DNA from: Nocardiopsis halotolerans DSM 44410
GTDB taxonomy: Bacteria > Actinomycetota > Actinomycetes > Streptosporangiales > Streptosporangiaceae
Length of the DNA stretch: 49,766 bases
Direction: 5' to 3'
NCBI RefSeq assembly: GCF_000341065.1
Contig: NZ_ANAX01000233.1
Span: 13,034 to 62,799 of the forward strand
A program made the position numbers and the translations under genes. Within the stretch, counting starts at the first letter, position 1. Each line of letters starts with the position of its first letter. The notes beneath the pieces were generated by a model, which searched no databases, was not told the DNA's origin, and saw only the letters and a program-made list of their open reading frames with translations. Positions 13,201 through 16,538 of the stretch are shown here, one piece after another.

Positions 13201-13989
13201 CTAGAGGCGAAGGTCCCCGGTGGCCACGGTGACCGCCTCTCCGCCGATCAGGACGCGCTCGCCCCGGTCCTCGACGAGCAGGTCGCCTCCGCGCGCGGAG
13301 GCCTGGTGGGCGGTCAGTCCGGCGCGGTCCAGGCGCTCGGCCCAGAACGGGGTGAGCACGGTGTGGGCCCTGCCGGTCACCGGGTCCTCGGGCACACCGA
13401 CACGGGGACCGAAGACGCGGGAGACGAAGTCGTACCCCTCGTCGGCCCGGGCGGTGACGATCACCAGGTGGTACGGGAGGCGGGCGAGCGCGGCGACGTC
13501 GGGCGCCAGCTCCCGCACGGCGGCCTCGTCGGCGAGTTCGACCAGCAGGTCGTCACCGCCGCCCAGGCCCACCCACCGGGGCTCGGCGCCGAGCGCCCCG
13601 GCCAGACCCTCGGGTGCCTCCACGGGCGCCGGGCGCTTGGCGGGGAAATCCATCCACAGGCGCCCGTCCCGCTGCTCGACGGTGAGGACCCCGCTGCGGG
13701 TGGTGAAGCGGTAGGGCCCGGGGACGCCGAGTTCGGTGAGCGCGTGCGCGGTGGCCAGCGTGGCGTGTCCGCACAGGTCGATCTCCACTGTGGGCGTGAA
13801 CCAACGCAGCTCGTAGGAGGCTCCCTCCCCGTCCACCGGACGGGCGAAGGCGGTCTCGGACAGGTTGAACTCCGCTGCCACCCCCTGCGCCCAGTCATCG
13901 GGGTAGGCCTCGTCCAGGACCAGGACGGCGGCGGGGTTTCCGGCCAGGGGCCGGTCGGTGAAGGCGTCGACCACGCGGTACTCAGGCAT
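13201..13989 (-). CDS. PhzF-family isomerase-like protein
   Basis: A 262-aa protein with the two-lobed diaminopimelate-epimerase-like fold of the PhzF family. Motifs: VVDAFTDRPLAGNPAAV at the N-terminus, the catalytic glutamate in FNLSETAF (near residue 43), CGHATLATAHAL, and GVPEDPVTGRAH in the second lobe. PhzF itself makes phenazines, but most members, including the yeast and E. coli ones, have no known substrate, and no other phenazine genes are nearby. ATG 13989 lacks an obvious ribosome site. The next gene upstream on the same strand is the Lrp regulator, 65 bp away, so co-transcription is possible. Confidence 0.9.
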   Translation of the reverse strand: MPEYRVVDAFTDRPLAGNPAAVLVLDEAYPDDWAQGVAAEFNLSETAFARPVDGEGASYELRWFTPTVEIDLCGHATLATAHALTELGVPGPYRFTTRSGVLTVEQRDGRLWMDFPAKRPAPVEAPEGLAGALGAEPRWVGLGGGDDLLVELADEAAVRELAPDVAALARLPYHLVIVTARADEGYDFVSRVFGPRVGVPEDPVTGRAHTVLTPFWAERLDRAGLTAHQASARGGDLLVEDRGERVLIGGEAVTVATGDLRL

Positions 13990-14054: not shown

Positions 14055-14492
14055 CTAGAGGGGCGGCTCGTCGAGGATGAACATGGTCTGCGTGCTCTTG
14101 ACCTCGGGCAGGCGCTGGAGGCGTTCGAGCACGAAGGTGCGCAGGGCCGCGGCGTCGGTGACGCGGACCAGCAGGAGCAGGTCGACGTCACCGGAGACCA
14201 GGGCGGCGTGATCCACCTCGGGGATGTCGCGCAGGTAACCGCGGAAGCGTTCCCAGGAGTGCTGCTCGATGCGCACGGACACGTAGGCGGACAGGGCCGT
14301 GCCGTACTTCTCCGGGTCGATGACGGCGGTGAACCCGCGGATGACGCCCTCACCCCGGAGGCGCTCCAGGCGCGAGTAGGCGTTGGCACGGGAGATGTGC
14401 GCCTGCTCGGCGACCGCACGGATGGACATGCGTCCGTCGCCGCAGAGCAGGGAGATGATGCGACGGTCGGTGTCGTCCAACTGCACGGCCAT
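14055..14492 (-). CDS. Lrp/AsnC family regulator, BkdR-like
   Basis: 145-aa regulator: an N-terminal winged HTH (DDTDRRIISLLCGDGRMS...ISRANAYSRLERLRGEGVI, residues 6-52) and a C-terminal RAM effector domain (VSVRIEQHSWERF to MFILDEPPL). In streptomycetes and relatives a protein of this type (BkdR) is divergent from the branched-chain 2-oxoacid dehydrogenase genes. Here it also faces an E1-alpha gene, but that gene is broken, so the regulator has lost its usual neighbour target or now acts elsewhere. The intergenic space is AT-rich and carries GTGTCTT/AAGACAC arms at 14493-14499 and 14622-14628, and ACCTCAT twice. Confidence 0.9.
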   Translation of the reverse strand: MAVQLDDTDRRIISLLCGDGRMSIRAVAEQAHISRANAYSRLERLRGEGVIRGFTAVIDPEKYGTALSAYVSVRIEQHSWERFRGYLRDIPEVDHAALVSGDVDLLLLVRVTDAAALRTFVLERLQRLPEVKSTQTMFILDEPPL

Positions 14493-14639
14493 GTGTCTTA
14501 CCTCATACCGGTCGCACGATGATCACATGAGAACATCCGGAACCTCACGGACCGATACCGGGCAGTTCGTCCAGCATCAACGCGAGGTTATCGACAATAT
14601 GGGGTAATTCACCTCATATTCAAGACACGAAGCACACCG

Positions 14640-15568
14640 ATGAGCGTTCTCGTCAGGCTCCTCCGCTCCCCTCGGCGGAGCCGGCGCGTCTCGTGGACCG
14701 GCACGGCCGGCGTGTGGAGCATCCGCTGTTCACCGCTCCCGACCACACCCTGCTCGCCGACCTCCACCGCGTCATGGTCATCGGCCGCCGCTTCAACCAG
14801 GTCGGAACGGGACTGGCTGTTCCCCAGCCACCGGCCTTGTCCGAGAGTGCTCCTGCCTTCAGGCCAGAGGTGAATCGGCCCTGGTGTGCACAGTGTGTTG
14901 GCGCTCCCGTGCTTTGAGTGTTGTCGGCAGGTGGGAATCACACCCGTCGATGTGTCGCCGCCGGGCTGGCGGAGAAGTCGAACGCCTGCGGAGGCAGGGT
15001 AAGACCACCACCTTCTGGGTGGGGCACCAGCCAGCGAAACAGGAACCGCGCGCGTCGTGAGGCGCGAGCACCACCCGCCCACGAGGGCGGGTCGGAATCC
15101 CCGTCAGTTCACGGCGGGGAGGATGTCAACGGGACAGCGTCGCCCTCGTCACCGGGGGCGTCGATCCGACGCGGGCCCTGACCCCGTTCCGTGGGGGCTG
15201 GCACCCCGGGTACGGCCCCCCACCGTCAGCGGTGCGCACCCCGGTGCACCCCGCTGGCCACGAACGCCTCCCACACCCGGGCCGGGGACGGCCCCGCCAT
15301 GGTCGAGACGGTCACCCACCGGGTGGAGGCGGGCGGTTCCGACACCCCGCGCCACCACGGGGAGGGATCCGAGGCCGTGTACTGGACCGCGCGCGACCCC
15401 CTGCTGCGCACGGAGGCCCTGCTGCGCGCGGAGGGCGCGTTCGGAACCCCGGAGGAGGCGGACGGGGTCCCGGCCTCCTCCGACGCCGGAGCGGAGGGGG
15501 TCGCGTCCCTCGTACGCGGTCACACGGCCGCCGGTGACCAGCGCCGCCCCCTGTCCACCGCCACGTAG
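14640..15568 (+). pseudogene. Decayed branched-chain 2-oxoacid dehydrogenase E1-alpha (bkdA-like), interrupted by an IS605-type remnant
   Basis: The N-terminal fragment starts at ATG 14640 (MSVLVRLLRSP), then needs a one-base shift to read AEPARLVDRHGRRVEHPLF and HRVMVIGRRFNQVGTGL, which is the E1-alpha start as in BkdA/PdhA. Homology stops near 14815. The C-terminal fragment resumes after 15130 (a DSVALVT stretch similar to the TPP-binding region) and is clear from about 15280: RAGDGPAMVETVTHRVEA and ARDPLLRTEALLRAEGAFG. The whole ThDP-binding middle, about 150 residues, is missing or scrambled, and a TnpB tail sits in the gap. No E1-beta or E2 gene follows. Intact enzymes use branched-chain 2-oxoacids to make acyl-CoA primers. 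Confidence 0.82.
14900..15130 (+). mobile_element. Remnant of an IS605/IS1341-type element: TnpB C-terminus and right end
   Basis: The frame 14918-15145 reads CVAAGLAEKSNACGGRVRP and SGWGTSQRNRNRARREARAP, which resembles the poorly conserved tail of actinobacterial TnpB proteins after the last zinc knuckle. The DNA ends with GGAATCCCCG...CGGGGAGGATGTCAA (15094-15129), the typical right-end hairpin and terminal motif of these elements. Nothing of the RuvC core or left end remains. This kept segment, about 230 nt, corresponds to the part that encodes the omega RNA scaffold in active TnpB systems. It sits within the broken E1-alpha gene. Left boundary uncertain. Confidence 0.78.
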
Positions 15569-15629
15569 GGGCGCCCCGGCGGGGCCGCCTCGCGTCCGCG
15601 GGCCCCGCCGGGTCCGGCCTGCTCGCCGC

Positions 15630-16538
15630 CTACTTGCGGCGCAGCCCGTCGACCACGGAACCCAGGCGCGAGCCCAGGCTGTGGCGGCCGGTGCTCCGAG
15701 CGATCAGGCTTCCGCCCCCGCCCCTGGCACCGGCGTGCGCACCGTTCAGGCGGCGGGTTCCGGCGAAGAGCATGGCGATCAGCACGGCCGGGATGAGGAC
15801 CAGGGCCAGCAGCCCGGCGCCCCCGACAACGCCGTCGGCGCCCATGAGCTGGAAGCCGGAGAGGTCGTTGGCGGCGGTCTCGGCGCTCACCCCGCCGTCG
15901 TCGCCCCCGTCCCCGCCGCCGGAGGCGCCCTCCTCGGACTTGCCCTCCTCGGCGTCACCGGAGTCGCCCTCGGCCTTGGTCGGAGCCGGCTCCTCGGCCC
16001 CGTCCTCCTCGTCCTTCCCGGCGCTCTCCTCCGGCTTCTCCTCGGGCTTCTCCTCCGGTTCCTCCTCGGAGTCACCCCCGGAGGCGACCTCCTCGGGGAT
16101 CGGGGAGACCGCGTCCTCGCACTTGTCGCCGGGCTGCTGGAAGGGGTGCGGCGCGCCCTCGGTGCCGTGACCGTCGCCCCACTCGGTGATGTAGTACTCC
16201 ACCTCGAGGTGGCCGTTGCCGCCGCTGACGGTGTAGTTGCTGTCGTTCCACGTCTCGCCGGTGATCTCGGCGAAGGTCTTGCCGTCGATGTCGAGCAGCA
16301 CGTCGCAGCCCTGGGAGGGGGCGCCCGGGCCCCGGTCGCCGATGAAGAACTCGGCTTTCCTGCCCTCGTAGACGATGTAGCCCTCGGTTCCGAGAGGCCA
16401 GCTGGGACTGGAGAAGAGGCCCTTCTGCATGGGTTCTCCGCTCGCGGGAGCCCCCGTGTCCCCGTTGATGCCGGAACCGTCGTCCCAGAAGTAGGTCGCG
16501 GTGACTTCGCCGTGCTGAATGGGAGTTTCGTTGCTCAT
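15630..16538 (-). CDS. Putative surface protein with DPBB/expansin-like domain and C-terminal membrane anchor
   Basis: 302 aa from ATG 16538. Residues 8-125 read HGEVTATYFWDDGSGING, then FFIGDRGPGAPSQGCDVLLD and IDGKTFAEITGETW, which fits the double-psi beta-barrel pattern of RlpA/expansin-like proteins (the Asp of DRGPG at the catalytic position). That assignment is mine and tentative. A 90-residue Glu/Ser/Gly-rich, acidic linker follows, then a membrane segment GGAGLLALVLIPAVLIAMLF and a basic tail. No signal peptide is visible in frame, although the topology calls for one, and the ATG has no clear ribosome site; the same frame is open to 17051. Either the start is wrong, or export is unusual, or there is a frameshift upstream. 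Confidence 0.6.
   Translation of the reverse strand: MSNETPIQHGEVTATYFWDDGSGINGDTGAPASGEPMQKGLFSSPSWPLGTEGYIVYEGRKAEFFIGDRGPGAPSQGCDVLLDIDGKTFAEITGETWNDSNYTVSGGNGHLEVEYYITEWGDGHGTEGAPHPFQQPGDKCEDAVSPIPEEVASGGDSEEEPEEKPEEKPEESAGKDEEDGAEEPAPTKAEGDSGDAEEGKSEEGASGGGDGGDDGGVSAETAANDLSGFQLMGADGVVGGAGLLALVLIPAVLIAMLFAGTRRLNGAHAGARGGGGSLIARSTGRHSLGSRLGSVVDGLRRK

Follow-up and report, generated by a model that had tools for sequence, protein, structure and literature searches.

A candidate structured RNA within the bkdC codons of Nocardiopsis that may outlive its operon

Does a regulator still have something to regulate once the operon facing it has decayed? The question is raised by the window, a stretch of 49,766 nt on contig C233 (NZ_ANAX01000233.1) of the Nocardiopsis halotolerans DSM 44410 genome, in which an intact gene for a BkdR-like regulator faces only a remnant of bkdA, the gene encoding E1-alpha. 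In Streptomyces, BkdR is a member of the Lrp/AsnC family with a divergent gene order. BkdR (SCO3832) regulates the branched-chain dehydrogenase (bkd) cluster, and deleting it in S. albus has been shown to decouple polyketide supply (PMC8176718).

Alignment to the orthologues present at the same locus in relatives located the E1-alpha remnant at positions 14627-15568. It comprises four fragments, all of which could be aligned to intact same-site orthologues (Table 1), in agreement with an earlier note made from the sequence alone, which had read the locus as a bkdA pseudogene adjoining an intact BkdR-like regulator. The frame is open from 14627 as far as ...GRRFNQ at 14800, and the first frameshift results from a 92-nt deletion at 14800/14801. 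The earlier note had placed this frameshift after MSVLVRLLRSP. The latter peptide was rejected as the start of bkdA since alignment to relatives showed that the ATG at 14640 is out of the E1-alpha frame, the orthologous start being the ACG at 14627. An intact protein in the MSVLV reading was not found in the relatives, and the E1-alpha assignment stands. Downstream from a 298-nt insert, the E1-alpha sequence resumes with DSVALVTGGVDP..., followed by one extra base. The 303 nt missing between NASH and PAMVE correspond to the ThDP-binding middle of E1-alpha, whose absence had been correctly noted. The lesions along bkdA are thus, in sequence, an ACG start, a 92-nt deletion, a 298-nt insert, one additional nucleotide, and a 303-nt deletion. 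The start, the frame, and the GDG...NN segment expected of a functional BkdA have all been lost. Comparison of the locus with that of relatives also bore out the absence of E1-beta and E2 genes. The bkdA copy of the window is thus an ordinary pseudogene, belonging to an operon that is redundant. The residual bkdA start is also ACG in N. flavescens and CC223A (loci L129 and L131), which lack bkdA and in which the adjoining operator is intact.

Table 1. Coordinates of the features of the locus. Positions are those of the window unless a locus handle (L) is given.
Feature	Position	Strand	Basis and remarks
PhzF-family gene after the regulator, same direction	13201..13989	-	PF02567, synteny; core Nocardiopsis only
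Lrp/AsnC-family BkdR-like regulator, intact	14055..14492	-	Pfam PF01037/PF13404 above cut-off
Putative palindromic operator ATATGGGGTAATTCACCTCATAT	14597..14619	.	between divergent starts; conserved also in bkd-less species
E1-alpha fragment 1 (TKHTDERSRQAPPLP...GRRFNQ)	14627..14800	+	alignment; start codon ACG, ATG in relatives
E1-alpha fragment 2 (SERDWLFPSH)	14801..14831	+	after 92-nt deletion; its last bases, CCAC, are the element's target, which relatives have as CTAC
Non-autonomous IS605-type element, 298 nt	14832..15129	+	further copies with common ends; closes with GATGTCAA
E1-alpha fragment 3 (DSVALVTGGVDPTRALTPFRGGWHPGY ... TPLATNASH)	15130..15274	+	contains +1 nt frameshift
E1-alpha fragment 4 (RAGDGPAMVETVTHRVEAGG...)	15276..15568	+	after 303-nt deletion of the ThDP-binding middle
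Expected site of the ~185-nt RNA, absent	15569..15632	.	comparison with relatives; 64 nt left before the convergent gene
Convergent surface-protein-like gene	15630..16535	-	synteny; right border in relatives
Copies of the ~185-nt element	L108:7298-7482, L112:8557-8742, L135:9599-9783	minus	20 more in alignment A4

The gene had also been described as split by an IS605-type remnant. An IS605-type insert is indeed present, but it is complete at both ends and not a mere scrap. It consists of a left-end hairpin (~14850-14869), a remnant of the 3' end of tnpB, and an intact omega-RNA-like right end. The latter corresponds to the structured 3' end of the TnpB omega-RNA, with 13 of the 37 pairs compensated. 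The window genome contains a second, decayed copy (contig C378) and a longer relative that bears TnpB (contig C386), and complete copies of ~295 nt with the same ends were found in genomes G045, G008, G003, and G006. Most copies are located directly after CTA(C) and their right ends close with GTCAA; relatives display the empty site, CTAC, at the same point of E1-alpha. Target duplication was not seen for the ~298-nt elements. Rfam returned no match for the insert, and a search of the window genome returned no match for the Y1 transposase (PF01797). Multiple copies with common ends, a fixed target, and no target duplication identify the insert as an ordinary non-autonomous IS605-type element. 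The term PATE appears in PMC7290912 and PMC3119063. With non-autonomous (PATE/MITE-like) IS200/IS605 elements and the TnpB omega-RNA, the insert shares subterminal hairpins, a fixed left target, the lack of target duplication, and a right end formed by the omega-RNA 3' end; it differs in being a Nocardiopsis form of ~298 nt that retains this end, in a genome that gave no Y1 transposase match. A multi-copy family of ~290 nt keeping the omega-RNA end occurs in G008 (N. kunsanensis, several copies), G006, G003, and G045, and the sequence beside the right end, at the guide position, varies from copy to copy. A shorter form of ~230 nt occurs at G006:C3:386568-386800.

In outgroups of the family, the order of the genes is the regulator, the divergent bkdA-bkdB-bkdC, the convergent surface-protein gene and, where the contig extends far enough, kynureninase. 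Three states of the locus were found within the genus, and complete loci are interspersed on the locus tree with loci lacking bkdB and bkdC. Loss of bkdB/bkdC is polyphyletic: the E1-alpha tree requires at least four events, and the locus tree suggests about nine. The E1-beta tree of complete species agrees with the locus tree, as fits vertical descent, indicating that the losses were repeated. A single ancestral loss followed by regain was rejected because the E1-beta and E1-alpha trees both fit vertical descent, the E1-alpha tree allowing as few as four losses. Shredded remnants of bkdA are present in the window, N. sinuspersici, and N. alborubida. Among the other species, N. terrae is complete and N. 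alkaliphila has an orphan E1-alpha. The locus tree places two records deposited as Glycomyces fuscus (L112) and Streptomonospora nanhaiensis (L113) within core Nocardiopsis, and both are probably misnamed. A cobalamin riboswitch (Rfam RF00174) is located near the edge of the locus at L112:20063-20222 and L135:20328-20435.

The operator and the regulator remain even in species devoid of any bkd gene. The regulator, composed of an AsnC-type HTH and an Lrp ligand domain (PF13404, PF01037), was found in 39 of the 40 genus genomes. Its gene is divergent from bkdABC in complete Nocardiopsis and in the outgroups of the family. Domain matches and synteny confirmed that the window copy is intact and has kept its divergent position, as the earlier note had stated. 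The omega value of ~0.014, obtained in every lineage class with or without bkd genes, argues for very strong purifying selection even in bkd-less lineages, and the regulator may have changed role, as the earlier note had also put forward. A frameshift is present in the regulator of L154 (N. eucommiae CP074402); this genome is 84% complete and the frameshift may be a sequencing error. The locus carries the palindrome in 38 of the 40 genomes, and its site there is the sole consistent one genus-wide. The promoter probably overlaps or surrounds it. Like Streptomyces BkdR, the Nocardiopsis regulator belongs to a branched-chain dehydrogenase cluster; unlike it, the regulator and its site, unique in the genome, persist after loss of all bkd genes.

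A third part of the locus is also kept. Comparison of the sequences downstream from orphan E1-alpha genes, i.e. those lacking bkdB and bkdC, revealed that most species devoid of the rest of these genes retain a ~185-nt piece of bkdC. In complete species, this element is located within the codons of the bkdC interdomain linker. In the eight orphans that have it in full, the distance from the E1-alpha stop to the element is 14-128 nt, and where E1-alpha is missing, no more than about 260 nt separate the bkdA start from the beginning of the element. N. kunsanensis and N. alba have the element but no bkd genes. The ends of the island are near-identical in orphans, remnants, and bkd-less species. 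Searches of the locus by BLAST or by a covariance model (R1) built from the alignment of the element detected it in 32 of the 40 genus genomes and partially in three (G020, G044, and G006), and failed to find it in five, including the window genome, for which the covariance model gave nothing above noise with filters off. In several outgroup genera, the model also identified full-length elements in the linker of bkdC (E values of 0.0016 to 0.1), and it found elements in further bkd-less loci. Retention as a peptide sequence of the E2 linker was rejected since some of the indels in species other than the complete ones have lengths not divisible by three.

The consensus structure consists of a long branched hairpin (P1-P3) and of P4 and P5; the loops of P3 and P5 share the conserved sequence AACGGC. 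Both sides were changed in 16 of 40 pairs, versus 6.6 in shuffled alignments, and none of 500 shuffles reached any of five measures. Pairs were formed in 95% of the cells of the alignment and in 33-50% after sliding the partners. A change private to L113, which lacks bkdB and bkdC, is an example: P3 contains GGCGAC/GTCGCC versus GGCGGC/GCCGCC in others. Single sequences folded only slightly better than shuffled ones (z about -1.6), as expected at this G+C content, and it is the covariation, backing one secondary structure, that carries the case for a structured RNA. Rfam contains no real match for the element. Functional RNAs carried inside a host transcript are exemplified in eukaryotes by snoRNA host genes. 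To our knowledge, no bacterial case has been described in which a host operon decays and its internal RNA element is kept, and, within a limited literature search, a structured RNA located inside bkdC codons and outliving its operon appears undescribed. The element resembles ORF-internal or 3'-end-derived bacterial small RNAs, and snoRNA host genes, in being a candidate functional RNA within a host transcript, and differs from both in being kept as its host operon decays. Like Ms1, the 6S-like RNA of Actinobacteria, this candidate is a structured RNA of actinobacteria that can be recognised from its conserved location; Ms1 lies beside a HAD hydrolase/oxidoreductase pair (PMC9130861), whereas the present element lies in bkdC, which sets it apart from the Ms1/6S RNAs.

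We consider it fairly probable, on comparative grounds, that a structured RNA produced from a BkdR-controlled promoter outlives its host operon, and that E1-alpha collapses once the RNA is gone. In the ancestral state, a BkdR-like Lrp/AsnC regulator would have faced bkdABC across one palindromic operator. Repeated deletions would then have removed bkdB and most of bkdC, the parts kept longest being the regulator, the operator/promoter, and the ~185-nt RNA. The latter would be expressed from the bkdA promoter and have a function of its own. A BkdR-controlled promoter is suggested since the bkdA promoter/operator block is the sole upstream sequence common to all loci. The frame of orphan E1-alpha probably remains open since transcription would not get past a leader left untranslated (polarity), and probably also since the protein must still fold, though its catalytic loops are lost. 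Where E1-alpha has been removed, the RNA would lie close behind the promoter. The window would represent the terminal stage of this recurring decay, and we infer that loss of the RNA was followed by collapse of E1-alpha through loss of the start, deletions, and the IS605-type element.

Orphan E1-alpha genes were found in nine species, with open frames of 332-393 codons. Changes are concentrated at residues 201-224 and 261-280, which, judging from homologous E1 proteins of known structure, are the ThDP and lipoyl-facing loops. Sites invariant in the 19 complete genes were changed in 5.07 of the nine orphans inside these loops and in 0.89 outside. Asn 183, Gln 210, Ala 217, and Lys 219 were altered in all nine. 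An E1 fold was predicted for the most diverged orphan (pTM of 0.78), with low confidence in the ThDP/lipoyl loops among other parts. Frame and fold under selection combined with loss of catalytic residues are the marks of a pseudoenzyme, and they are found in the orphans of relatives, not in the window copy. The sequence and fold of BCKDH/PDH E1-alpha (PDB 1w85, 1um9, and 1u5b) match over nearly the full length; the window copy departs from them as a pseudogene, and the orphans in lacking E1-beta and having eroded active-site loops. Conservation of the fold with erosion of the loops would suit a pseudoenzyme with a new job, e.g. an effect on the regulator or on the activity of another E1 complex. 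The island, which has the bkd transcript on one side and the convergent surface-protein gene on the other, would then be a transcription terminator or a 3'-end stabiliser. This combination is rather unlikely, since the island is older than the loss and resides inside bkdC of complete species and outgroups, where a terminator would truncate bkdC. Moreover, the island remains after E1-alpha is gone, and E1-alpha is dispensable in many species.

The reading frames bear on a second alternative, the plain decay of a redundant paralogous operon, in which other bkd sets would perform the function, loss would be neutral, and the RNA-like island and open frames would be leftovers. Intact bkd genes elsewhere in the window genome and the shredded remnants of the three species named above are in line with such decay. 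However, all 13 indels of the orphans relative to the nearest complete orthologue were multiples of three and no stop was detected, versus ~5.8 of 8 genes expected to contain a stop under a neutral model fitted to the orphans' excess change. Omega was 0.197 on orphan branches, which as terminal branches also cover the time before the loss, versus 0.061 elsewhere, and omega = 1 was rejected (lnL of -9510.7 versus -9656.9). The orphans were picked by a long open match, introducing some survivorship bias in frame conservation. This bias is unlikely to be the whole explanation because E1-alpha intermediates with one or two frameshifts were absent among the species compared, and the bkdC remnants of the same loci carry frame-breaking indels. 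Retention of the same ~185-nt piece in some 16 genomes that lost bkdB/bkdC, and the compensatory changes of the island in such lineages, also argue against plain decay, which we regard as unlikely.

The pairs proposed for the RNA could equally form in single-stranded DNA, and a single copy at a fixed place would suit a structured recombination or replication site. Action of the element as DNA is nevertheless very unlikely, since the structure is preferred on the bkdA strand (z of -14.1) over the complement (z of -6.5) and many cells of the alignment are G-U pairs.

As to redundancy, the search for an intact bkdABC recommended by the earlier note identified sets on contigs C99 and C308, in which the E2 genes contain assembly Ns and the C99 E1-alpha gene reaches the contig end, and an E1-alpha/E1-beta pair on C243. 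Owing to these genes, the proposed effect of the loss on branched acyl-CoA supply is unlikely. Control of another intact bkd set in trans, which the same note had suggested for the regulator and with which its strong conservation and the two further sets would agree, is most improbable and was rejected, since the 23-bp palindrome is a single site in the window genome at ≤3 mismatches (the C99 bkd promoter being off-contig), as it is across the genus.

A long frame-broken E1-alpha preceding a full RNA was not seen in any species: either the frame is open as far as the RNA or E1-alpha is gone. The sole long broken E1-alpha is the window copy, with no RNA behind it. This pattern, in few lineages, would fit a requirement for translation in order for transcription to reach the RNA, combined with residual selection on the E1-alpha fold. 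The association of E1-alpha collapse with RNA loss is drawn from one genome, that of the window. N. quinghaiensis combines an open E1-alpha with an RNA reduced to its last hairpin, which is either a recent loss of the RNA or a counterexample to polarity. Against the explanation, ribosomes should translate through the element in complete species and unfold it, and part of the retention may be mutational if hairpins act as deletion endpoints. We propose only tentatively that the BkdR-controlled, ORF-embedded RNA could be the selected product of the locus, and that a catalytically dead E1-alpha upstream could be kept in frame chiefly because its translation allows transcription to get as far as the RNA.

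By itself, the window locus is ordinary, and it is the comparison with relatives that yields the less ordinary RNA element. Repeated losses of one operon provide a natural experiment on the parts that are kept, here a regulator, its operator, and a structured RNA concealed within coding sequence. The locus also offers a clear test case for translation-dependent transcription keeping dead reading frames open. If the RNA is expressed, bacteria would have an equivalent of the host genes that are retained because of the RNAs inside them, the regulator would gain a target after loss of bkd, and apparent pseudogenes or orphan subunits may be RNA carriers. The PhzF-family gene next to the regulator is restricted to core Nocardiopsis, the clade of the bkd losses, and may be a new regulatory partner.
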